Assembly (NCBI RefSeq): GCF_039596395.1
Contig: NZ_JBCNJT010000001.1
Coordinates: 248,001 to 312,000, forward strand
DNA length: 64,000 nt
Direction of reading: 5' to 3'
From: Fluviicola sp.
Lineage (GTDB): Bacteria > Bacteroidota > Bacteroidia > Flavobacteriales_D > Crocinitomicaceae
Below the pieces are notes generated by a model. The model was given only the letters and a program-made list of their open reading frames with translations, was not told where the DNA came from and made no database searches. Position 1 is the first letter of the stretch. Each line of letters starts with the position of its first letter. The translations under genes and the position numbers were made by a program. Below are positions 20,988-45,745 of the stretch, one piece after another.

Positions 20988-21049
20988 TTTTTTTACATTG
21001 GAACTTTTGAAATTTCTATTTTAGAAATTTGAAATCTAATAGTTTACTA

Positions 21050-21907
21050 ATGTTACTTACTAACGATACTATTCAAAACACTAAAGATTGGTTAGATTAT
21101 ACTGATGTATTTCTTGACCCAGTTCTCTTAATACTAACTTTTTTCCTTGGGTATTGGATTTCCAATTGGCAAGTTAAACGAAAAGAAAAAAAGGAATTAA
21201 ATGAACTATACGATTATTTCCTTTTATACTTAGCTCGACAAGAAGCTACAATATCTTTACAAATCAAGGCAATAGAGGAACTTATTAATGAGTTAAATTA
21301 CCTGAAACCATTTAAAACGATAAGAGCTAAATTTATTATTCAACCAATTGAACTTTTAGAAAATTTAAATAGGGCTCAAATTGTTGAATCATTTAAATTT
21401 AAAAGTCATCCACCCGTTGAGGCTATTAATCTGTTTGTATTTATTAACCTCTGTGTCGAAAATTTTAAAAATTTTCAAGATTCACATTTAAACTTTGGGA
21501 AGAGACAAAATGAAATCCTTTATAAGTGGAATGAATTAATTAAAGATTTCCACATTTCGAAAATCAATTCGATTAATATGTCCACAACAGATATCATTAA
21601 TATTCCAGAGTTGATGACTTTGAATAGATATTATAATGATTTTTGCGAGCTAAAAGACCCAACCCCGGAAAACGTAATGGAAGTATGCATTACCCCTTTG
21701 AAAAAGTATTTTGGCGAACTAGGAAAAATTGACCATACGAATAGTTATGCTATTCATTATATACCTAAACTTGAACAAATAAGAATAACATATTTTACAA
21801 GTGAAGAGTATATTAGACAACAACAACAATATCTTAAGGACATGCTGGAAGTATTGAAGGTGCAAATGGAAAAATCAAAAATCAAGAATTACATTACTAA
21901 TCTTTAG
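21050..21907 (+). CDS. Hypothetical membrane-anchored protein (AT-rich islet)
   Basis: A 285-residue protein. I chose the ATG at 21050 over an in-frame TTG at 21029. One membrane helix is predicted near the N-terminus (DPVLLILTFFLGYWISNW, about 23-40), followed by a basic segment VKRKEKKE and a long, mostly helical cytoplasmic domain. No family recognised. Base composition is clearly more AT-rich than the flanking genes, and codons favour A/T endings. With the next gene it forms a foreign-looking pair separated by 31 bp. Function unknown. Confidence 0.62.
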   Translation: MLLTNDTIQNTKDWLDYTDVFLDPVLLILTFFLGYWISNWQVKRKEKKELNELYDYFLLYLARQEATISLQIKAIEELINELNYLKPFKTIRAKFIIQPIELLENLNRAQIVESFKFKSHPPVEAINLFVFINLCVENFKNFQDSHLNFGKRQNEILYKWNELIKDFHISKINSINMSTTDIINIPELMTLNRYYNDFCELKDPTPENVMEVCITPLKKYFGELGKIDHTNSYAIHYIPKLEQIRITYFTSEEYIRQQQQYLKDMLEVLKVQMEKSKIKNYITNL

Positions 21908-21938
21908 ACGAAGAAGATGTTTTCTTCAATGTGTTGAA

Positions 21939-22577
21939 ATGGAAAATAAAATAAAAAAAAATTGGTTTGAAGATAATCCGACAAAATCGATAATTACTTA
22001 TACGCTTATAATTATAGGAGCTGCTTGGGCTTTTTATAGATTTACTTTTGAAGAAAATAAACTTGACTTGTATAAAGCTCAAATTGAATCCAAAAAATCT
22101 GAAATTTCTCAATATATGGCGAGGATTGATTTTTTAGAAAAAGAGAATACTAGATTAAATGTTATATTAAAAGATTTTGAAGATTGGAATTCAAAAAGTT
22201 CAGATCCTGGATTGTTTTATAAAAATAAATTTAAAGAGTTAGCATTACTAAAAGCTAAATATGAAAAATCTCTTGCTTTAAATAATACGGTTTTAAACAA
22301 TACAGCACACAATTCTAAAAACTCAAAAACTTCATTAGATGTTGATATCTCAAAATCGAGTACTTACATTAACGATGATTTAGGAATTGTAATTGCTGTA
22401 AACGATGTTAACCTATATGGTGATTGTAATATTACAATTAGTGTAGGGATGAAAAAAAATGAAACTTTTAAAGATGTAAAGGTAGGAAGACAATTTTCCT
22501 ATGATAAAATAAGTATTACTTTGAGTGAAGCTCAATATATTGGTTCATACGCAAAATTTCATATTTCAGTTAATTGA
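21939..22577 (+). CDS. Hypothetical membrane-anchored coiled-coil protein (AT-rich islet)
   Basis: 212 residues. A single N-terminal membrane helix (SIITYTLIIIGAAWAFYRF, about 17-36) is followed by a coiled coil (about 40-105: LYKAQIESKKSEISQYMARIDFLEKEN) and a C-terminal beta-rich domain (DLGIVIAVNDVNLYGDCNITISVG). Such a layout is common for membrane-tethered sensors or anchors, but I recognise no family. It is strongly AT-rich like the preceding gene, with which it is probably co-transcribed. The two look horizontally acquired as a unit. Confidence 0.62.
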   Translation: MENKIKKNWFEDNPTKSIITYTLIIIGAAWAFYRFTFEENKLDLYKAQIESKKSEISQYMARIDFLEKENTRLNVILKDFEDWNSKSSDPGLFYKNKFKELALLKAKYEKSLALNNTVLNNTAHNSKNSKTSLDVDISKSSTYINDDLGIVIAVNDVNLYGDCNITISVGMKKNETFKDVKVGRQFSYDKISITLSEAQYIGSYAKFHISVN

Positions 22578-32218: not shown

Positions 32219-33823
32219 ATGGCTGACTTTTTTTACCAGGAGCCGTTTCCTATTCAAAAGGACACGACTGAATACCGCAAAGTTTCTTCCGATTTTGTTA
32301 CCGTTGAGAAGATCGGGAACAGGGAAATACTGAACATCGATCCGAAAGCATTGGAATTCTTAGCACAGGAGGCATTGGCAGATGTTTCCTTTTACCTGAG
32401 AACTTCCCATTTGGAGAAATTACGCGCTATCCTGGATGATCCGGAAGCAACGGATAACGACCGTTTTGTGGCTTACAACCTGTTGCAGAATGCGACGATC
32501 GCTGCGGAAGGACAATTGCCTTCCTGCCAGGATACCGGAACGGCTATCGTAGTGGGCAAAAAAGGAGAAGACGTCTATACCGGCGTGAATGATGCTGAAT
32601 ACCTTTCCAAAGGAATTTACAATACTTACCAGGAGCGCAACCTGCGGTATTCGCAGATCGTGGCTTTGGATATGTTCGAAGAGAAGAACTCCGGTTCCAA
32701 CCTTCCTGCTCAGATTGACCTGTACGCCACACAGGGAGCGAAATACGAATTCCTGTTCCTGGCTAAAGGTGGAGGTTCTGCCAACAAAACATTCCTGTAC
32801 CAAAAAACAAAGTCCTTATTGAATGATGCTTCCCTGGAAGAATTCATCAAGGAAAAGATCAAGGATTTGGGAACTTCCGCTTGCCCGCCATACCATTTGG
32901 CGTTCGTAGTAGGAGGGACTTCCGCTGAAGCGAACCTGGCGGCAGTGAAAAAAGCTTCCGCGGGATATTACGATCATTTACCGACAGAAGGAAATATGGG
33001 CGGCCAGGCTTTCCGCGATTTGGAATGGGAAAAGCGCATCCAGAAAATTTGCCAGGAAAGTACCATCGGGGCACAGTTCGGTGGAAAATACTTTACACAC
33101 GATGTACGGGTGATCCGTTTGCCTCGTCACGCGGCATCTTGTCCGGTTGGATTGGGAGTTTCCTGCTCTGCCGACCGTAATATCAAGGCAAAAATCACCA
33201 AAGACGGGTTATTCGTAGAACAATTGGAGAAAAATCCGCGTCGTTTGTTGCCGGAAGTTCCGCCGCATTTGGAGCCGCCTGTAACAATTGACCTCGACAG
33301 GCCGATGGCTGAAGTATTGGCTGAATTGTCCAAATACCCGATCAAAACACGTTTGAAACTGAATGGAACATTGATCGTGGCGCGCGACGCTGCTCATGCC
33401 CGCATCAAAGAATTAGTGGATGCAGGCCAGCCGATGCCGGAATACTTCAAGAATCACCCGGTTTATTATGCAGGCCCTGCCAAAACCCCGGAAGGAATGC
33501 CATCCGGAAGTTTCGGACCTACAACGGCGGGCCGCATGGATTCATACGTAGACTTATTCCAGAGCATGGGCGGAAGCATGATCATGCTGGCAAAAGGAAA
33601 CCGTTCGAAAGACGTAACCAATGCCTGTAACAAATACGGCGGATTCTACCTGGGATCAGTTGGAGGCCCGGCAGCGATCCTTGCAAAAGAAAACATCCTT
33701 TCCGTAGAATTGGTCGATTTCGAAGACATGGGAATGGAAGCAGTTCGCAAGATCACCATCAAAGATTTCCCGGCGTTCATCATCACAGACGATAAAGGAA
33801 ACGATTTCTTCGCGAATTTGTAA
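32219..33823 (+). CDS. Fumarate hydratase class I, iron-sulfur type
   Basis: A 534-residue single-chain class I fumarase that reversibly hydrates fumarate to malate in the TCA cycle. The three [4Fe-4S] cysteines are visible as C103 ([10 protein letters not shown]), C222 (GTSACPPYH) and C316 (GVSCSADR), with the spacing (119 and 94) known from class I enzymes. The C-terminal domain has [19 protein letters not shown]. Such enzymes are oxygen-sensitive. A second, unrelated class II fumarase lies at 50289-51677. Single gene, followed by a nested hairpin at 33842-33877. Confidence 0.95.
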
Positions 33824-35587: not shown

Positions 35588-36331
35588 TTAAAAGGATGAA
35601 TCAGAATCATCATTAGTTATGGGTTTATTGAACCAGCGTTTAACCCATCGCTTTCTGATTTTCCATTCCCAATCCGTGTATTTCGGGAAATAATATTCGA
35701 AAAACCGGATGGTGTATAATACTTCTTTTTCGAGGTTTAAGTCGCGAGTGTTTTCCAGGTATTTGGCATCAAGTGTTTCTTCAAACAAAATTTGTTTCAT
35801 GACAAAGGGAGGTAGTTTATTGAACCCTTTGTAGTCGTATTTCTCATCGAATACAATGCTGATTGCTTCATAGTTTTTAGTTTTTTTACCCGGGGAATGA
35901 TGAAGGATGTTCGGGATGAGTTCCTTCCTGGTCGATGGCAGGATTTCATCATTGCGGAGAGTTCCTAGTTTCTCGAAAATTAAACCCGCTTCTTCATCGG
36001 TAAATTTCCGTTTCTTTTTAAAATCCGTTGTGTTGAGTACTGGACAAAAGTGTTCAATCCATTTGTTAAAGGTTTCTGCATCTATCAGGTAATACCGGGT
36101 GAAAAACTTTTTGGAGTATTCGATCTTCTTTATTTTTTCCAGGTCCTTTTTACTCATCAATTCGAAAATATAAATAAGAATCTGCATCGTATCAAGCTTT
36201 TTTTGCTCGACGTAATACTCATACAAACGCAGATAAACCTGGTGATCTTCATCGAAAGAATCAACAGGCACATTGCTATGCCCGTTGATAGGTCCATGTT
36301 CGTTACCCTCTGCTGCTCCAGTAAGCATCAT
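35588..36331 (-). CDS. Hypothetical protein, accessory region
   Basis: 247 residues from tandem ATG codons at 36331/36328. It is soluble, Lys/Glu-rich and mostly helical, and ends with an aromatic-basic cluster (YFPKYTDWEWKIRKRWVKRW) and an acidic tail (NDDSDSSF). No family recognised. A 34-codon frame (36303-36407) lies just upstream in another frame and overlaps its first 29 bases. Either the two are translationally coupled, or a frameshift has split one longer gene and its true N-terminus is the short frame. More AT-rich than core genes. Confidence 0.5.
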   Translation of the reverse strand: MMLTGAAEGNEHGPINGHSNVPVDSFDEDHQVYLRLYEYYVEQKKLDTMQILIYIFELMSKKDLEKIKKIEYSKKFFTRYYLIDAETFNKWIEHFCPVLNTTDFKKKRKFTDEEAGLIFEKLGTLRNDEILPSTRKELIPNILHHSPGKKTKNYEAISIVFDEKYDYKGFNKLPPFVMKQILFEETLDAKYLENTRDLNLEKEVLYTIRFFEYYFPKYTDWEWKIRKRWVKRWFNKPITNDDSDSSF

Positions 36332-36732: not shown

Positions 36733-37143
36733 ATGAAGAAATACCTGTGGATTATTTCCCTGAGTTTATACCTGTTGGCTTTTATTTTGCCGGTGTATTC
36801 CACCACGAAAGGTCCGGCTACTTTCGGTCAGGGGATTCCTATGCTGGCCTTGGGCTGGATCCAGGCATTCACCGAAAAAGGACTCGCATTGGCATGGTTC
36901 GCCAATCCGTTATTCATCATAGCCCTGTGCACCACCAAAAAGTATCCGGTTACAAGCGTGTTCTTTGCCGCCTTTGCAATCCTCACAGCACTTTGTTTTC
37001 TCCGTGGCGGTGTTATTTACCTGCCCCACGACGCAACACATTTCGCCTACCTCACCGGAATAAAGATCGGCTACTGGACCTGGCTGGCGAGCATGGTGGT
37101 GGTTTTGGTGGGGGCGGTTTTGAGGTGGAAGGGCAGGAATTAG
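36733..37143 (+). CDS. Small four-helix membrane protein, unknown function
   Basis: 136 residues, mostly hydrophobic. Helices lie at about 4-22, 40-62, 66-88 and 110-132. The N-terminus MKKYLWIISLSLYLLAFILPVY could be read as a signal but is more likely TM1. There are no catalytic motifs. It is the only plus-strand gene in the accessory region and ends tail to tail with the minus-strand gene, the stop codons overlapping in TTAG (37140-37143). No family recognised. Confidence 0.6.
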   Translation: MKKYLWIISLSLYLLAFILPVYSTTKGPATFGQGIPMLALGWIQAFTEKGLALAWFANPLFIIALCTTKKYPVTSVFFAAFAILTALCFLRGGVIYLPHDATHFAYLTGIKIGYWTWLASMVVVLVGAVLRWKGRN

Positions 37144-37835
37144 GCTACTCCCAAATTTCCAAGTGAGTCGCTATTACGAATTTGATGGATTTCATCACAA
37201 ATCAATTTCAATTGCTTCATATCTAATGCCATTTTGTGTGATGCATTGATGATTGTTTGTGCAAATGGATCAATACAGATACACAATCTTGGGTCGACCT
37301 TTTCATCTTCTTTTTCAACAAAATTACTTAGGAATTGATTAAGTAATTGCGCAACCAGAGCCGATTGCTGGTTGTTGAAAGGATCTTTTTTAGCAATATG
37401 TATTTTAAATGCACCAATATATTTTTGACCTTCATATTCAATTCTGAAAATAGAATTAGGCGAAACCTTAATGTTAATACCATGTATGGGTAAGAAATTC
37501 GCCTTTGTTTCAATATATTCTAATCTGAAATTTTTCACAAATGGTGGAAGTGGCATACTTTTAAAAAGTTCCAATGCTTCAATGGAATATTTGTTATCTC
37601 TTTTTTTCCAGTCCGTATCCGGGATTTTGTTTTTGATCCGTTTAATACCATTATCCAAAATAGATTGATTTCCTCCAGCTAAGATGTATTTAATTATAGG
37701 CCATTTGGCTGCTTGATAATGGAAGGGTCTGTCAGGATCAAAGCTCAGTTGGCCCTGGATAAGTGTTTTCTTTTCAGAAGGAGTGCTATTCAAAAATTTA
37801 GCTAAAGAAATAAGTGAAAAATCGAGATCTGTCAT
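37140..37835 (-). CDS. Hypothetical protein, last gene of candidate defence operon
   Basis: 231 residues from the ATG at 37835 (a second ATG at 37856 adds seven residues). It is soluble and mixed alpha/beta. A central stretch FRIEYEGQKYIGAFKIHIAKKDPF (about 148-171) followed by a helix with NQQSALVAQLLNQFL looks like a structural core, but I do not recognise a domain. It lies 54 bp after the PD-(D/E)XK nuclease gene on the same strand, so it is probably the fourth gene of that operon. It might be a regulator, immunity factor or accessory subunit (inference only). Confidence 0.6.
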   Translation of the reverse strand: MTDLDFSLISLAKFLNSTPSEKKTLIQGQLSFDPDRPFHYQAAKWPIIKYILAGGNQSILDNGIKRIKNKIPDTDWKKRDNKYSIEALELFKSMPLPPFVKNFRLEYIETKANFLPIHGINIKVSPNSIFRIEYEGQKYIGAFKIHIAKKDPFNNQQSALVAQLLNQFLSNFVEKEDEKVDPRLCICIDPFAQTIINASHKMALDMKQLKLICDEIHQIRNSDSLGNLGVA

Positions 37836-37889
37836 TTTTAGTAGTAATATAACCACTCTTCAGACGGAAGACTAATTTTTAAGTTGCTT

Positions 37890-39029
37890 TTAATTTTTTG
37901 ATTTATAGTTTGTTAACAGTTTTGTGTGGCTTGGATTTGACGATAAATTGTTCTTCCATGAAGAAATATCTTTGTCAGAATAAAAATTGTCAACAATTTT
38001 TAAAATTAATTCCGCGAAATCCTTCAGAATGTTTTTATAAATGAAATTCGCCAGGTTCTCCAGTTCTTGATCAGAAAGATGATAGTCGCGAACTATAAAA
38101 TGCATGTACCTGCCCTTTGACTCCCTAGTGGTGTTTTGAATATACTTTGGATGATTAGAAAGAAGCTTTTCGATCTCCAGATAGCGTGCTTTGTCCTCGT
38201 CCCACAATTCCAGGATAATTTGAATATGTTTATGACCTTGCATTAAATCACTTGTAATTATAGTGATATATGAATGAATTTTATTTTGTTCGTCCCAAAA
38301 ATTCCTCCAATCTGTTGAATTTCCATGTGAAACCCAGCCCAATTTACCGGCAAGTAATTCGAATTGATTATTTATGAAGGTATTGGCAGCAGCAGTCGTT
38401 TCCTGAATTTTTAGAATTTTCTGTGCATGTTCGAAGTAAAATTTCGCTTGTTCATCCATGGTATAGTTCGTTGAAAATTGATCAATTGTATTTACAAAAT
38501 CCGTAATATAAATCGTGTATTTATTTGAAAGATGAAAAGGTATCCCTTTTTCCTTCACTTTTTGGGTCCATTCAACATGAGTGATATTGATGAATGTTTC
38601 TTGGTTCGCGTCAGGAATCTTGTGAGGATATGGTGTTAATAGAATGCCAATTTTATGATCTTCAGAACATTGGAAATGATTCCAATAGTCTGTTAAATCA
38701 TTGTTTAAATGATGAAATATTTTGTTTTCAACAAGAATTACCTGCTCACTCAATCTATCCGTGATTACAATATCGATTCTCCCATTTTTTGTAACCACTT
38801 CACACGTTGCGAAAGGATCTCCAAATGAAAAAAGTCTTTTTGATTTTTCTTCAATTAAATCTGTTAATGCGTCCATGAACAATTCACTCACTGCCTTTTC
38901 CTCACAGTTGATGAAATGTGCGTAGATTGAGCTATTGATATTTTCGTGGTATTGCTTTTTGATGATTTCCAGGAATCCAATAGGTAGTTTTTTGGATTCC
39001 GGGATATCAAGGGTGAGGAGATGTATCAT
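37890..39029 (-). CDS. PD-(D/E)XK nuclease superfamily protein (PDDEXK_4-like)
   Basis: 379 residues. The nuclease core is near the N-terminus, at about 45-125: GRIDIVITD gives the acidic metal ligand (D86), and ILVENKIFHHL gives the E-x-K pair (E101, K103), followed by a glutamine/aromatic helix (DYWNHFQ). This arrangement fits the PDDEXK_4 group of restriction-like nucleases common in defence regions. The remaining 250 residues are a helical C-terminal domain of unknown role, perhaps for recognition. It starts 29 bp after the DUF262/DUF1524 gene stop. Active-site residues look intact. Confidence 0.83.
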   Translation of the reverse strand: MIHLLTLDIPESKKLPIGFLEIIKKQYHENINSSIYAHFINCEEKAVSELFMDALTDLIEEKSKRLFSFGDPFATCEVVTKNGRIDIVITDRLSEQVILVENKIFHHLNNDLTDYWNHFQCSEDHKIGILLTPYPHKIPDANQETFINITHVEWTQKVKEKGIPFHLSNKYTIYITDFVNTIDQFSTNYTMDEQAKFYFEHAQKILKIQETTAAANTFINNQFELLAGKLGWVSHGNSTDWRNFWDEQNKIHSYITIITSDLMQGHKHIQIILELWDEDKARYLEIEKLLSNHPKYIQNTTRESKGRYMHFIVRDYHLSDQELENLANFIYKNILKDFAELILKIVDNFYSDKDISSWKNNLSSNPSHTKLLTNYKSKN

Positions 39030-39058
39030 AACAGAGATTCAATTTTTTATATCGGAAG

Positions 39059-40759
39059 TTAATTAAGTACTTTTTTGAAGTAAGAAATCAAATCCGAAAT
39101 CAACCGTTCTTCTCGTTCGATAATGTCTTCCTTCACCCAGTCTGTATTTTTATGGTTTGCTAATTCAACAACGTTGGCAATATTAGATTTGCTATAATGT
39201 GTTTTCTTAGCATTAAAGTATCCATTCCCAGCTTGAATGTTTAATCGTTTCTCAAACAAGATCTTATTTCCGAATTTTTCTAAATAATTTTTAGCATCAA
39301 TCTGTTCCCAACCGTTGTAATTGGTATTTTGCCATTTTTTAGGGAAGATATGTTCAATATCATGACCATTTGGAATTAGATCCATTTGGTGCTTATTTTG
39401 ATAGGCATGTAGTAAGAGTAAAGATCTTGTTATTCTCGAATACGAATATATAGGAAGGCGTTCACGTAACTGATCGTCATTTATTTCCCTGGTAAAGCTA
39501 TGATCTTGTGAGTTAGCAATATAAATACAGTGTTGGTAGATTGAATCTTTTATTGCGTTTACGGAAGGATTTTCAATAAAACGCACTAGCAGGAAAGCTT
39601 GTAAGTTTTCAAGAAATTTCGGAAAATTATCATTAAAAGTTGAAGTGCTCCTATTTATCAAATAATAAACTGATACAATATATTTCCAATATTCATTTGG
39701 ATAGGTACTAAGAATTTGAAGTTGCTTCCAAGTATAAATATTGAAATCAACAGATATGGATTCATGTTTTTCATTCTTATTGATATATAACCAAAAAAGA
39801 GATAGATCGATAATGTTTGGCATTAAATCAGGGTGATGTAGCTTTTCATTTTTAATACCCCCCGTTTGATAAAACTTACGAAGTGCAATTTCTTTTGATT
39901 TATCTCCATTTACTGCGCGAATGTAATGTGAATAATATCTGAAAATGTCATCAATTGTAAGGTCTGATTTTTTACAAACTTCAGTCAAATCTTTCCATTT
40001 TTCGTTGAAGGCATATTTCTCATCTGAAGAAGGTTTAGATTTATAAATTTCTGATTTGAAAATGTCGGAATCCGCTAATGGCATGCCGCGATCATTTAAT
40101 GTTGAGAAGATACGTAAAGCTGTATCAGGAGTATCGCATTCGATGGGTAAAATAATACAACGTTGTAGAATAGTAACACATAACTCCTGCCACTTAATAG
40201 GATTCAATGAAGCATATTCTTGACACTTAGTTAAAAAGAAATTATAGTTAATGGAATAGCGATCTTTCTTCACATGAGAAAGATGTCCAGTTTCAAGAAT
40301 TGTATGAAATGTGTGGTTATCATCATCTGTTGCTACTTTTGACTCAATATGGGTTTTCTTTTTGTCTTCTACCAATTGAGAAATGGAATCTACATCCCAA
40401 ATGCAAGGTGCAATTTGTCCCATTAATCCATTCACTCTTGGGTCGGATGTCATTTGTTCTAATCGGGTGTAGAATGCTCTTAATAGTAGAAAAAAAGAGG
40501 TTATCCGTTGTTGTCCGTCAATAATGTCGACCTCTTTATCATTGTCCTCACTTTTATAGGAAACAATTGTACCTAAATAGTATTCTTGTTTTTGAGAAGT
40601 GTCTGATTCATAAAAATCAAGAATATCCTGCCAAAGAGTTTCACACTTTTCAATGTTCCATTTGTAAGGGCGCTGGTATTCCGGAATAATGAATTTCTTT
40701 CCTTGCATATCAGTAAATAGTTTTCTGATATCCTTTCTGCTTACGTTAAGTTCTGCCAT
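39059..40759 (-). CDS. DUF262/DUF1524 protein (GmrSD-type modification-dependent nuclease)
   Basis: 566 residues. The N-terminal DUF262 domain has the opening FIIPEYQRPYKWN and the ParB-like nucleotide motif DIIDGQQRITSFF (81-90). The C-terminal DUF1524 domain has a His-Me/HNH-type nuclease motif HDIEHIFPKKW (H466, H470), followed by FGNKILFEKRLN and NAKKTHYS. This is the fused form of GmrS and GmrD, which in characterised examples uses nucleotide hydrolysis to cut DNA with sugar-modified hydroxymethylcytosine. Both motif sets are present, so it may be active against modified phage DNA (inference). It starts 3 bp after the metallo-beta-lactamase gene stop. Confidence 0.9.
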   Translation of the reverse strand: MAELNVSRKDIRKLFTDMQGKKFIIPEYQRPYKWNIEKCETLWQDILDFYESDTSQKQEYYLGTIVSYKSEDNDKEVDIIDGQQRITSFFLLLRAFYTRLEQMTSDPRVNGLMGQIAPCIWDVDSISQLVEDKKKTHIESKVATDDDNHTFHTILETGHLSHVKKDRYSINYNFFLTKCQEYASLNPIKWQELCVTILQRCIILPIECDTPDTALRIFSTLNDRGMPLADSDIFKSEIYKSKPSSDEKYAFNEKWKDLTEVCKKSDLTIDDIFRYYSHYIRAVNGDKSKEIALRKFYQTGGIKNEKLHHPDLMPNIIDLSLFWLYINKNEKHESISVDFNIYTWKQLQILSTYPNEYWKYIVSVYYLINRSTSTFNDNFPKFLENLQAFLLVRFIENPSVNAIKDSIYQHCIYIANSQDHSFTREINDDQLRERLPIYSYSRITRSLLLLHAYQNKHQMDLIPNGHDIEHIFPKKWQNTNYNGWEQIDAKNYLEKFGNKILFEKRLNIQAGNGYFNAKKTHYSKSNIANVVELANHKNTDWVKEDIIEREERLISDLISYFKKVLN

Positions 40760-40762
40760 GAT

Positions 40763-42010
40763 TTATATTATTTTTATATAATGATTGTTAATTGAGGTAT
40801 CGTGAACAACAGGAAATAAATTAGTGAAGTGTTGAACAATTCCTATTAAAGGATGTCCGTATCTTCCACCAGCTGAAATAACCGCATCCGAAGCTCCAGG
40901 GATATCAATAGTATTAATTAATTGATAAGTTCCTGCATTTCCGCCATGATGAGGAACTACAAAATTGAATTTAGTGTTAGTGCAATTTGGAAGTACATAA
41001 TTCATTAATTGTTCATAATAGTGGTCTCCCGGAAAAATAAAATCATCATTTTGTGAATGAATAGACAAAACCAATCCTCGTTTATTTCTGTTATAACATT
41101 TGGTTCCTTTGTATATTTTTAATACACTGCTGTCGTAGATATTCGTTAATCTATGGGCTTGACCATTACCAACAACTTGTTCGCTCATGGTTATCGGAAT
41201 AACCTGGGAATGTTGTACTAATCGATTGTATACGCGTCGCGTAGTTTCATTCTCGATTCTTGCAGGAACAATACAATACTCAAATAACTGTATTTGTTTA
41301 TCTGTTAATGAATTTATACCAATATAGTGGTCGGTGTCCCAATGACTGATAATTAGTATTTTTCTGATTTCTGCTTTGTCTATTCTTTCTAATATTTCTC
41401 TTACCCGCCGTGCTCTGATAATGCTTTTTAATAATCTTCCAAATACCTGGGAAGAGGATGAGCCGAAATCATAGGTGATAATAAGTTGATCGTCAAACGA
41501 AATCTCATTCCAATTTCCCTGCCCCACATTATAAACACCAATATGGATGTTATTGTTCGTTAGTTTATCAAACAAATTTGAAAGAAAACTATTTAATGCT
41601 AAATTATTTGGAGAATCTGTATTTTGAACATAACGTGAATAATTCAGGGCACGATTAAAGTACAAAGGGCTTTGATACGTTGCCTTGAAAGCAAGATATG
41701 TCGCTCCAAATTCTTCATCTTCTTCAACTGTAATCCAATTAACGTTCGTCATTAATGCATCGGGTAGCTCGTAAAAGCTACCTTCCCTGGGCGTTCCATA
41801 TTTTTCAAATGAAATATAACTTATTTCTATCATTGACTTATTCTCAGGAAAAGTCAGTTCTGTTCGACGGATAAAATTTTCCTTTGATTGTGGATCAATG
41901 GTGAAGTCGAAAATCATGGTATAAATAAATCTACCTGCTTCCTTTCCAATTTTCTCCAATCTTTCGATAAAGACAACAACTTCTCTATCTATTCCTGTTA
42001 GGTTATTCAT
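40763..42010 (-). CDS. ComEC-like metallo-beta-lactamase-fold hydrolase, stand-alone
   Basis: 415 residues. The first 150 have no recognised domain. The hydrolase domain opens with IGVYNVGQGNW (158-167), matching the DVGQGD signature of the ComEC/COG2333 group. The metal motif is SHWDTDHYIG (H223, D225, D227, H228); later ligands are in FPGDH (D329) and VPHHGGNAGTY (H354/H355), and the closing motif is SAGGRYGHP (379-387). There are no membrane helices, unlike ComEC itself. It is the first gene of the candidate defence operon. Members of this fold cut nucleic acids or nucleotides; the substrate here is unknown. Confidence 0.85.
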   Translation of the reverse strand: MNNLTGIDREVVVFIERLEKIGKEAGRFIYTMIFDFTIDPQSKENFIRRTELTFPENKSMIEISYISFEKYGTPREGSFYELPDALMTNVNWITVEEDEEFGATYLAFKATYQSPLYFNRALNYSRYVQNTDSPNNLALNSFLSNLFDKLTNNNIHIGVYNVGQGNWNEISFDDQLIITYDFGSSSSQVFGRLLKSIIRARRVREILERIDKAEIRKILIISHWDTDHYIGINSLTDKQIQLFEYCIVPARIENETTRRVYNRLVQHSQVIPITMSEQVVGNGQAHRLTNIYDSSVLKIYKGTKCYNRNKRGLVLSIHSQNDDFIFPGDHYYEQLMNYVLPNCTNTKFNFVVPHHGGNAGTYQLINTIDIPGASDAVISAGGRYGHPLIGIVQHFTNLFPVVHDTSINNHYIKII

Positions 42011-42320
42011 CTTAAATAGTGGTTAATTCGGTAATAGGGAAGATGCCATAGTTCAATTCAGTTTTATCCCCCAAACATGCAAATTCCCCTTCAACCCACA
42101 ATCATTTTTAGTTGAAATCTTCCCGGGTAACCATCATTTTCAGTATTTACCACATTTTAAACTTCTCAAAAATGTGGTTTTCCGAATCTAAAATCCCTTC
42201 CTTTTCCTTTTCAATCCGAAACGATAGGAACCTCACTTTAACTTCCCACACCTGTAACCATTCTAACCCTCCAAAAACCCATCCTCCAACCCCAAAATTC
42301 CCTCCGCCGACCCTCCCGTA

Positions 42321-42364
42321 TGGGTCAAGTACGGGTCAAGTATAGGTCAAGTACGGGTATAGTA
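42321..42364. repeat. Four 11-bp direct repeats
   Basis: Units TGGGTCAAGTA, CGGGTCAAGTA, TAGGTCAAGTA and CGGGTATAGTA follow without gaps. An 11-bp period is about one DNA turn, so bound proteins would line up on one face. This could be an operator or a simple-sequence expansion. Confidence 0.8.
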
Positions 42365-42409
42365 TCAAAACGTTATTCCTCTAACAAATCACACTATTCT
42401 TAACAAGTT

Positions 42410-42535
42410 AACTGGTCGGCCCAGGAAAACCCGCCAGGACTGGGCTTACTAGAGATGACTGCTCGTTACAAACATCGCTCACCGAAGAGATAGGAAAGTC
42501 AAAAAGACTTCAACAAACGGGGCAAATTCCCGCAG
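42410..42535. other. Block with several stem-loops, possible structured RNA or mobile remnant
   Basis: Three potential stems occur in 126 bp: GCCCAG with CTGGGC (about 42419-42445), AAGTC with GACTT around an A5 loop (42496-42510), and CGGG with CCCG (42518-42531). GC content and texture differ from neighbouring sequence. It matches no RNA family I can name. It might be a small RNA, an mRNA leader or a decayed mobile-element end. Confidence 0.35.
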
Positions 42536-42634
42536 CCAATTCCTTTTCAAAACCTGAATTCATTACACATAAATGCGTATTAGATAAACCGAATTTATAT
42601 GCCGAAGTGCTCCTCTGCCGGAAATTAAACATTT

Positions 42635-42651
42635 GTCTGCCGAAGGCGGAC
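42635..42651. repeat. Hairpin in the border region
   Basis: GTCTGCC, loop GAA, GGCGGAC form a 7-bp stem with one T/G wobble. No T run follows. It lies about 210 bp before the receptor gene. Confidence 0.5.
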
Positions 42652-42859
42652 ACTTAATTACTCTTGAACATCCCCGAAATCTGTGAAATCTGCGTGAAAT
42701 AAAATGAGTTCACCGAAATCTGTTCCTCCGTAACCAATACCGGCCCTGAATCTTCTCGAACCCGCAGGGCACGATTTTTGCTACCACCCACAGATTTTTT
42801 TGCTGTCCCGGTAAACCTTTCGGTCGCAAAACAATCCAAGCAGTAAACAAACCCATTTT

Positions 42860-45745
42860 ATGCAAATTCGCTTCATACTAGTTACACTTCTCACATTGCT
42901 TTTTGCCCTCGGTGGCTACTCACAAACACAACTTTCCGGGAAGGTGCTCGACTCCAAAACCTCCGAAAAACTCATGGATGCCCGCGTAGCATTGTTATCA
43001 GCGGCAGATTCCTCCGTGGTGAAAGCAGCCAATACAGACGAGAACGGGGCCTACACACTTGACAGTCTAAATCCCGGGAATTACATCCTCAAAACAACCC
43101 TCTTCGAATACGTCGACCAGTTCCGGAACGTAACGCTTCCCGAAGAAGATACAGTACTCGATGTCATCCTGAAAACCGATACGAAACTCGAAGAAGTAAC
43201 CGTGGAAGCCAATGCGGTACGCGTCGAGCAAAAAGGCGATACCACGCAGTATAATGCGGATGCCTATAAAACGAATCCCGATGCGACGGTGCAGGACCTC
43301 ATCACCAAAATGCCCGGAATTACACTCGAAAATGGCGTGGTGAAAGCGCAGGGAGAACAGATCACCAAAGTGATGATCGACGGACAGGAATTCTTCGGCG
43401 ATGACGCAGCAGCGGCCATGAAGAACCTGCCGGCCGAGATCGTTTCGAAGATCCAGGTCTACGACCAGGCAAGCGACCAGGCAAAGTTTACCGGTATTTC
43501 AGACGGGAACGAAGCGAAAGCCCTGAACATCGTCACGAAAGCGGGGAAGAATAACGGCCAGTTCGGGAAGATCTATGCCGGTTACGGAACCCCCAACGAT
43601 TTGTACATGGCAGGTGCCAATGTGAATTTCTTCAAAGGAACGCGGCGTTTCTCCATCGTGGGAATGTCCAATAACGTGAACCAGCAGAACTTTTCCACCG
43701 ACGATATCCTGGGAGTAACAGGTTCTACGGCAAGCTCGCAAAGCAGGGGAGGGCCGGGTGGTCCGGGCGGACGAGGTGGTTTCGGTGGTCCGGACAACGA
43801 GAACTACCTGGTTTCACAGCAAAACGGGGTGAGCACCACTCACGGACTGGGCCTCAACTTTTCCGATAAATGGGGAAAGAACAAGACAACGAAAGTAACC
43901 GGAAGCTATTTCTTCAATGCATCGAACACGAAAAATTCCCAGCAAACAAACCGTACCTATGTGCTCTCTACAACAGCCGGGCAGGTTTACAGCGAAGACT
44001 TCCTGTCAACAATGAAAAACGCCAATCACCGCCTGAATTTCAAGTTCGATATAGCACTCGATTCCATGAACTCCTTGGTGATCAACCCGAAAGTGAGCTA
44101 CCAGGGAAATGAAAAAGCGCAAACCACAGATGGAACTACGGCCGATGCAAGCAATGTGCTGATCAACCAGATCAATAATCGCACGTTCAACGAAACCAAA
44201 GGGTTGAATGCGAGTACGAGCGTATTGTGGCGTCACCGGTTCGCAAAGCCAAGACGTACCTTCTCGGCAAATATTACCGGTACATACAACATAAAAGAAG
44301 GCGACAACGGACAGCTTTCTTCCTCGCGTTACTACGACGAACTCGGCCAGGATTCACTGGCGGAAATCGATCAGCATACAGACAATAATACCAATGGTTA
44401 CGGGGTAAACGGACGTTTTTCCTTTACCGAACCGTTGAGCAAAACATGGTCGAGTGAGTTTTACTATGCTCCGGCCTATACGGTGAGCAATGCAGACAAG
44501 CGCACCTACGATTTCGACACGGTAACGAATTCCTATTATTTCATGGATACGACCCTTTCGAATGTCTTTGAGAATCAAACGATCGTGAATGAAGGAGGAA
44601 CGAATTTCCGTTTTCAGAAGAACAAAGTAGGATTGCAGCTGGGACTAAGTTACCAGAATTCACTGTTGATGAACGTGCAGGAATTCCCGACCAATCGCGA
44701 TGTGAACTTGTCCTTCAATTCCATCCTGCCGAACGTACGTTTCAAGTATGATTTTACCAAATCGCGAAGCCTGATGCTGAACTACCGCGCCGGAACTCGT
44801 AACCCCACGATTGATCAGTTGCAGAACGTGATCGATAACTCGAATCCTTTGTCTTTATCTTCCGGAAACCCGGATTTGAAGCAGCAATACAATCACCGCG
44901 TATTCGGTCGTTTCAACAACACGAATATTCAGAAAGCTACAAACTTCAACATCTTCTTCGGAGGGGAAATGAACCAGAACTACATTTCGAACGCAACCAT
45001 CATTGCAACAAGTGATACGGTCGTGAACGGGAATGTCCTGTTGCTGCGCGGAGCACAATTTCGCCAACCGGTAAACCTGCAGGGAAGCTACAACGCCCGC
45101 ACCACGATCTCGTATGGTTTCTCCTTGACGAAGCTGAAACTGAATCTGAATTTCTACCTGGGAGGAGCGTATACCGTGGCACCGGGATTGATCAACAATG
45201 TCGTAAACAAAGCGAAGACTTCCAATGCGAACGGAGGTCTGACCGTTTCCAGCAACATCAGCGAGAACCTGGATTTCACGGTAGGTTATACCCTGAATTA
45301 CAACAACGTGGTAAACACCCGCCAGAATGTGGCGCAGAACGAATACTTCGTACACAACGTGAATGCCCGTTTCAACTGGATTATCAAAGAGCGTCTGGTG
45401 ATCAACAGTACTTATTCCGTGAATGCCTATGCCGGTCTGGGATCAGGTTACAACCAAACGATCATGTTGTGGAACGGTGGAATCGGTTACAAACTCCTGA
45501 AGAAAAAACAGCTGGAACTGCGCGTTTCCGTATTCGATATCCTGAACAACAACAACAGCATTACGCGTAACGTTACCGAATCCTACATCGAAGACGTGAA
45601 ATCGAACGTGTTGAACCGTTACTACATGGTAACGCTCACTTACAACCTGCGCAATTTCGGAACGAAAGCTCCCGAAACCAAAGAAACAAAACCGGCACAT
45701 GAAGGTGGAATGGGAGGCCCGCCGTTCGGCCCGCCAACATATTGA
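42860..45745 (+). CDS. TonB-type outer-membrane beta-barrel receptor family protein
   Basis: 961 residues. The signal peptide (MQIRFILVTLLTLLFALGGYS) is followed by a carboxypeptidase-regulatory-like beta-sandwich (about 22-107, QLSGKVLDSKTSEKLMDARV). A plug domain follows (about 110-230; DLITKMPGITLENG, KVMIDGQEFFGDD) and then a long beta-barrel. It belongs to the outer-membrane beta-barrel family related to SusC/TonB receptors, and no SusD partner lies beside it. A Gly-Pro-Arg loop (297-311, GGPGGPGGRGGFGGP) is inserted at the start of the barrel, and the C-terminus is also Gly/Pro-rich (GGMGGPPFGPPTY). Substrate unknown. Confidence 0.9.
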   Translation: MQIRFILVTLLTLLFALGGYSQTQLSGKVLDSKTSEKLMDARVALLSAADSSVVKAANTDENGAYTLDSLNPGNYILKTTLFEYVDQFRNVTLPEEDTVLDVILKTDTKLEEVTVEANAVRVEQKGDTTQYNADAYKTNPDATVQDLITKMPGITLENGVVKAQGEQITKVMIDGQEFFGDDAAAAMKNLPAEIVSKIQVYDQASDQAKFTGISDGNEAKALNIVTKAGKNNGQFGKIYAGYGTPNDLYMAGANVNFFKGTRRFSIVGMSNNVNQQNFSTDDILGVTGSTASSQSRGGPGGPGGRGGFGGPDNENYLVSQQNGVSTTHGLGLNFSDKWGKNKTTKVTGSYFFNASNTKNSQQTNRTYVLSTTAGQVYSEDFLSTMKNANHRLNFKFDIALDSMNSLVINPKVSYQGNEKAQTTDGTTADASNVLINQINNRTFNETKGLNASTSVLWRHRFAKPRRTFSANITGTYNIKEGDNGQLSSSRYYDELGQDSLAEIDQHTDNNTNGYGVNGRFSFTEPLSKTWSSEFYYAPAYTVSNADKRTYDFDTVTNSYYFMDTTLSNVFENQTIVNEGGTNFRFQKNKVGLQLGLSYQNSLLMNVQEFPTNRDVNLSFNSILPNVRFKYDFTKSRSLMLNYRAGTRNPTIDQLQNVIDNSNPLSLSSGNPDLKQQYNHRVFGRFNNTNIQKATNFNIFFGGEMNQNYISNATIIATSDTVVNGNVLLLRGAQFRQPVNLQGSYNARTTISYGFSLTKLKLNLNFYLGGAYTVAPGLINNVVNKAKTSNANGGLTVSSNISENLDFTVGYTLNYNNVVNTRQNVAQNEYFVHNVNARFNWIIKERLVINSTYSVNAYAGLGSGYNQTIMLWNGGIGYKLLKKKQLELRVSVFDILNNNNSITRNVTESYIEDVKSNVLNRYYMVTLTYNLRNFGTKAPETKETKPAHEGGMGGPPFGPPTY

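Follow-up and report, generated by a model that had tools for sequence, protein, structure and literature searches.

Three predicted nucleases and an orphan gene in a chromosomal defence hotspot of Fluviicola

Described relatives and the layout of the four genes

Domains of ComEC are described as having Mn2+-dependent nuclease activity (PMC8579336), and related metallo-beta-lactamase-fold (MBL) proteins of Hachiman, AVAST and canu loci are presented as DNases that a partner protease activates (PMC12799240). GmrSD and BrxU, which are single-chain Type IV enzymes, cut modified DNA under NTP control by DUF262 according to PMC10952713, which also links the NTPase activity of DUF262 to control of the nuclease in SspE and suggests such a link for Menshen. 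Proteins related to both groups stand side by side in the window, by which we mean the whole stretch of 64,000 nucleotides of Fluviicola sp. DNA that was analysed, together with a third predicted nuclease and an orphan gene. The parts are all of known kinds, and their arrangement is that of cargo in a defence hotspot. The genes and the leader in front of them are:

42070..42183, minus strand: conserved leader in front of the operon, about 113 bp long, containing the dyad ACCACATT..AATGTGGT (DNA search)
40763..42010, minus strand: predicted DNase with a ComEC-type MBL fold, 415 aa, of which about 150 precede the MBL core (motifs and predicted fold)
39059..40759, minus strand: single-chain GmrSD (DUF262 + DUF1524), 566 aa (Pfam and conserved residues)
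37890..39029, minus strand: PD-(D/E)XK nuclease (PDDEXK) of the PADLOC family PDC-S26, 379 aa (PADLOC profile and conserved residues)
37140..37856, minus strand: orphan gene 4, 238 aa, or 231 aa if the ATG at 37835 is the start (ORF)

The four genes follow each other with gaps of 3, 29 and 33 bp, and since the spacing is so close they are probably transcribed together, from one leader. A preliminary description of this DNA had the four minus-strand genes and the first two gaps right, while the 54 bp that it gave for the last gap applies only with the ATG at 37835 as the start of gene 4. It had also called the region AT-rich, which agrees with a GC content of 0.325-0.337 in the four genes against 0.443 in the window and 0.485-0.487 in two flanking genes. 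Its assignment of the first three genes to the MBL, DUF262/DUF1524 fusion and PDDEXK families holds, and the motifs that it listed are present, i.e. VGQGN and SHWDTDH in the MBL protein, DGQQR and HDIEH in GmrSD and D86/E101/K103 in PDDEXK. Because the catalytic residues are conserved in aligned relatives, all three proteins look catalytically intact. A search of plasmids with the operon DNA matched no more than 15% of the operon length, in Planktothrix, and a first scan of genome contigs for homologues gave no match. A search of PHROGs returned only families of unknown function, except for a tail-protein match to the MBL protein at E 0.029.

The MBL protein has no significant match in Pfam and none in a sequence search of the PDB, and its assignment draws on motifs, the predicted fold and a family profile whose matches are of ComEC size. 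All ten aligned rows, the window included, keep the MBL metal ligands H223, D225, D227, H228, D329, H354, H355 and H386. The predicted model (pLDDT 71, with low-confidence loops at 202-214 and 279-283) has its best PDB fold match in 9ic4, the beta-lactamase-like domain of ComEC (Foldseek E 1.1e-8, TMt 0.59, TMq 0.40, rmsd 7.9). A profile of ten homologues matches 98 of 395 genomes of the phylum, nearly always in open frames of 720-911 aa, which is the size of ComEC; from this size, and from the match of five of the ten family members to TIGR00361 (ComEC_Rec2), we read these frames as probable ComEC. The window protein is not among the five. It thus shares the VGQGN, SHWDxDH, D, HHG and H motifs and the best fold match with the C-terminal MBL nuclease domain of ComEC, but differs in that it matches none of the ComEC sequence models, has no membrane channel, carries the extra N-terminal residues and lies in a restriction-type operon. 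The preliminary description let the protein process either a nucleotide or a DNA intermediate; since by fold it comes closest, among characterised proteins, to ComEC-type nucleases, the nucleotide role appears less likely than a DNase activity. Close stand-alone relatives are rare, with one in 395 phylum genomes, two in 150 family genomes and, by profile, three in 399 order genomes, counts that come from overlapping samples and each include the own genome. No relative was found in phages. Plasmids gave none either, apart from one weak Hymenobacter match (23% identical, E 5e-3) with a Flavobacterium tyrosinilyticum relative as the query, and among viral contigs one search found nothing and two further searches yielded one and the same contig.

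GmrSD matches both GmrSD_N (1.5e-36) and GmrSD_C (5.8e-13) above the Pfam cut-off in one chain. The DUF262 motif IDGQQR is at positions 80-85, with D81-R85 invariant in seven aligned rows, and in the DUF1524 motif it is H470 that is kept in all six rows that have this domain. H466, earlier pointed out as a key residue, is F, L, W, W and S in the relatives. The protein resembles GmrSD and BrxU in the DGQQR of DUF262, in the conserved His of DUF1524 and in having relatives that occur without MBL or PDDEXK, but its top PADLOC models are HEC-06 and Orf5, SspE scores lower, and the best 25 of 29 PADLOC matches include none to a model by the name of GmrSD. By analogy with the described enzymes it may cut modified DNA in the same way, with NTP control by DUF262. 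It matches 1100 plasmid records, of which 28 cover 80% of the query, and no viral contig.

The PDC-S26 profile PDLC04982 matches residues 17-354 of the PDDEXK protein (E 1.9e-31), and all six aligned rows keep R84, D86, E101 and K103. We take PDC-S26 to be PADLOC's label for a single-gene candidate; the window protein agrees with it in profile and in the catalytic residues kept, but differs in standing in tandem with MBL and GmrSD genes, and a relative 87% identical has other neighbours. No paper using the names 6A-MBL or PDC-S26 was found in a literature search. The protein search found PDDEXK in three of 296 phylum genomes, the own one included, and in no viral contigs. Gene 4 has no significant Pfam match, a predicted fold of low confidence (pLDDT 55) and no match in plasmids and viral contigs, and besides itself it has one relative in 150 family genomes, which is 25% identical and adjoins an IS1595-type transposase.

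A chromosomal hotspot with exchangeable cargo

The operon lies between two genes that make it possible to compare the same place in other genomes of the genus, and a further ORF lies within this interval:

32219..33823, plus strand: fumarate hydratase gene, left flank (Pfam Fumerase 1.4e-76)
35588..36331, minus strand: 247-aa ORF, possibly cargo (31% identical to a homologue at the G489 hotspot; no Pfam match)
42860..45745, plus strand: outer membrane beta-barrel gene, right flank (Pfam OMP_b-brl_3 7.6e-26)

The outer membrane gene has a match at E <= 1e-100 in eight of the 14 genomes of the genus, the own one included. The region 5' of it is occupied in six of these eight, again with the own genome, and the six cargoes are all different and of restriction or defence type; it is empty in the other two. 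The labels are family names given by Pfam or PADLOC, and the functions are predicted. G439 has KAP, an HSDR_N-like protein (below cut-off), putAbiC and PDDEXK_4, and G463 has a Schlafen-type helicase with GIY-YIG, a MazG-like gene and one unclassified gene. A Type I R-M set is present in G473, in G489 (with an AAA ATPase, an unclassified gene and a GmrSD_N protein) and in G497 (with two GmrSD_N proteins), and since their HsdM proteins are only 25-30% identical these are three different sets. The distance between the fumarate hydratase and outer membrane genes is 9.0 kb in the window, about 2.8 kb in G481 and about 0.13 kb in G404, and in the latter two defence-type cargo is absent between them. 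The far flank varies: G439 and G473 share flanking genes (45-68% identical) that are also present on one side in G522 but absent from the window. The G522 contig is without the outer membrane gene. The 247-aa ORF may be a recurrent gene of the hotspot.

What was first described as a core-like neighbourhood is rather a variable defence hotspot, in which the cargo differs among congeners, and the location speaks for a defence role more strongly than could be seen when the operon was first described. The place is a testable hotspot in a freshwater genus of Bacteroidota, where the cargo is swapped and in three genomes stands behind a conserved leader. A second AT-rich block of the window (GC 0.28-0.33 at 21-23 kb) is found at 21029-22577; its two ORFs, 292 and 212 aa long, look membrane-anchored by eye.

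Homologue neighbourhoods and possible modes of action

Twenty loci with homologues were each searched with all four proteins (tblastn, E <= 1e-3, which would miss remote family members). One family was present in 19 of them, two in a single locus, and three or more in none. A second copy of the whole four-gene set was not found by these searches, so the conservation of the set can be tested only piecewise.

The closest MBL relative (G754, 48% identical) has none of the other three families in 10.7 kb, on a contig that ends 1.4 kb downstream. The next one, in F. tyrosinilyticum (42%), has two DUF262 genes 72 bp behind it, and by eye the operon looks Type III R-M-like. A relative in a Flavobacteriales MAG (about 32%) adjoins a DUF3644 gene, and one on a contig of a viral collection (30%) is alone. 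PDDEXK and gene 4 are thus absent at all four of the MBL relatives of about 30% or more, and DUF262 at three of them. Seven more distant MBL loci (L006-L012) lack the other three families throughout; a peptidase label considered for a gene of L010 was rejected, as Pfam gave it no support. The closest GmrSD relatives are on plasmids of Planktothrix (50%), Lactiplantibacillus (39%), Lactococcus (38%) and Enterococcus (37%), four loci out of the 1100 matching records, and the other three genes are absent beside every one of them; the one in Enterococcus comes after Type I R-M genes. The 87% identical PDDEXK relative, in the congener G522, stands behind a copy of the leader with TPR, KAP NTPase and putAbiC genes between. 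Two PDDEXK relatives from the same class are found amid genes that we read by eye as Type I R-M, and one on a Vibrio plasmid amid annotated Type I R-M genes, and none of these four loci has any of the other three genes.

We consider it probable that the operon is composite cargo of the hotspot, made of modules that move independently, and that each nuclease works additively or largely alone. The additive reading is supported by the swapping of cargo at the hotspot, by the occurrence of relatives of each gene without the other three, and by the nuclease activity described for ComEC domains and related MBL proteins. The four genes would be the local cargo, put together from such modules and probably co-expressed from one conserved leader. 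The single-chain GmrSD would recognise and cut modified phage DNA, with NTP hydrolysis by DUF262 controlling the DUF1524 nuclease, the PD-(D/E)XK protein would cut DNA as an independent module, and the MBL protein would be a soluble, metal-dependent DNase of ComEC type that serves as an extra effector. We infer that all three nucleases act on DNA, against phages and independently of each other. If the action is additive, the case warns that compact gene arrays in defence hotspots need not be single systems.

Two observations count against additive action, namely the gap of only 3 bp between the MBL and GmrSD genes, which suggests translational coupling, and the DUF262 genes that also follow MBL in F. 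tyrosinilyticum. Both would fit a two-gene system of MBL and GmrSD, with PDDEXK and gene 4 as passengers, which we hold to be possible but unlikely. DUF262 would sense modified DNA and hydrolyse NTP, and together with DUF1524 it would either nick or cut DNA that the MBL protein then degrades, or directly switch the MBL protein on; the NTPase-nuclease coupling described in SspE and suggested for Menshen (PMC10952713) speaks for this. However, DUF262 adjoins only the one MBL relative among the four closest, the very closest has no DUF262 up to the end of its contig, and the DUF262 proteins of the window and Flavobacterium are only 22% identical and of different subfamilies, so the pairing is not co-inherited. 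DUF262 (GmrSD_N) is moreover common at the hotspot, and two of the other five occupied genomes have it without MBL. If the two proteins do cooperate, restriction of modified DNA would gain a second DNase step. More doubtful than the pair itself is the wider proposal that it is an undescribed system, in which the DUF262 NTPase/DUF1524 protein, with no protease involved, either recruits a soluble DNase of ComEC type or switches it on, and that the dyad-bearing leader is a genus-wide operator controlling cargo at two hotspots.

It is improbable that the MBL protein is a gated pro-nuclease, inactive until it is cut by a protease. What it has in common with the MBL nuclease-protease pairs (HamM, Avs1- and LmuA-associated, CanC; PMC12799240) is a ComEC-like MBL in a defence locus, to which the predicted ComEC-type fold, weak PADLOC matches around the metal motif (LmuA 1.5e-4, RTasMBL 0.0049) and a subtilase (Peptidase_S8) gene next to a distant family member (L009:483-6967) can be added. 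The operon differs from these pairs in having no recognisable protease partner gene: Pfam gave no significant protease family match among the four genes, the sole trace being Peptidase_A21 on gene 3 (PDDEXK) at E 0.19, below the cut-off, and inspection by eye of the surroundings of the four closest MBL relatives revealed no protease. A branch of ComEC-type MBL proteins that is without a recognisable protease partner is now placed in a defence locus. The locus L009:483-6967 also holds an MBL-like gene (by eye), and may itself be a further protease-nuclease locus.

The reading with the smallest probability is the one first proposed, in which all four genes make up one multi-nuclease anti-phage system. 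The compact same-strand array, the uniformly low GC and the single leader upstream agree with it, but the homologue loci almost all hold one family, none has three or more in this or any order, and GmrSD, PDDEXK and MBL genes are each found apart in homologous neighbourhoods. No title or abstract opening describing a set of MBL, GmrSD and PDDEXK was found in the literature, which is weak evidence because preprints and most subscription journals were outside the scope of the search.

The leader and a second hotspot

In the DNA search the leader recurs just ahead of other cargo, in G522 (87% identical over 115 bp, E 1.3e-33) and G439 (82%, E 9.4e-26). This search is the independent evidence, since the covariance model of the leader has the copies of G439, G522 and the own genome as its input, so that its scores for those three are by construction. 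The model matched 23 of 119 genomes at E <= 0.01, of which 17 are outside the genus, all with E above 1e-4, and three of the four out-of-genus matches that were inspected are inside long ORFs. Rfam gave nothing in the window at gathering score, and nothing at E <= 1 in 41900-42900.

A core of 23 bp in the leader, AATGTGGTAAATACTGAAAATGA, has 13 matches in nine of the 14 genomes with up to three mismatches allowed, against one control match. We count nine of the 13 (window 42070-42183, L037, L038, L053, L059, L061, L065, L066 and L067), and dropped those in G452 and at G439:C1:2382296, which are inside ORFs, and those in G481 and G522:C71, which are without the full element. Three of the nine are at the hotspot of the window and six at a second one. 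The leader was not reported at the first hotspot in G463, G473, G489 and G497, although cargo is present there, and is therefore not a general feature of it.

At the second hotspot three of the six cores are near glyA (94-95% identity among the three), and the remaining three have one or more further flanking genes in common with these. One of those near glyA is in the own genome (L067, C5:101500-114500), with DndB-, PAPS-reductase- and SMC-like genes behind the core, and looks like a phosphorothioation-type locus. In G473 the genes behind the leader are TIR_2 (below cut-off), PDDEXK_4 and HNH_2, and one gene behind it in G463 has no Pfam match. The leader is possibly a shared operator for cargo at the two hotspots. 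The dyad is conserved in its sequence and not by compensatory change, which makes a protein-binding site as likely as an RNA hairpin. We also considered that the leader could be a multi-copy repeat, which was rejected as the own genome has only two copies of the core. A different, dispersed repeat is found beside it, at 42310-42449 of the window; with 12 of 49 candidates scored, no fewer than 11 other places in the own genome match it, and it contains short TACTTGACC direct repeats.
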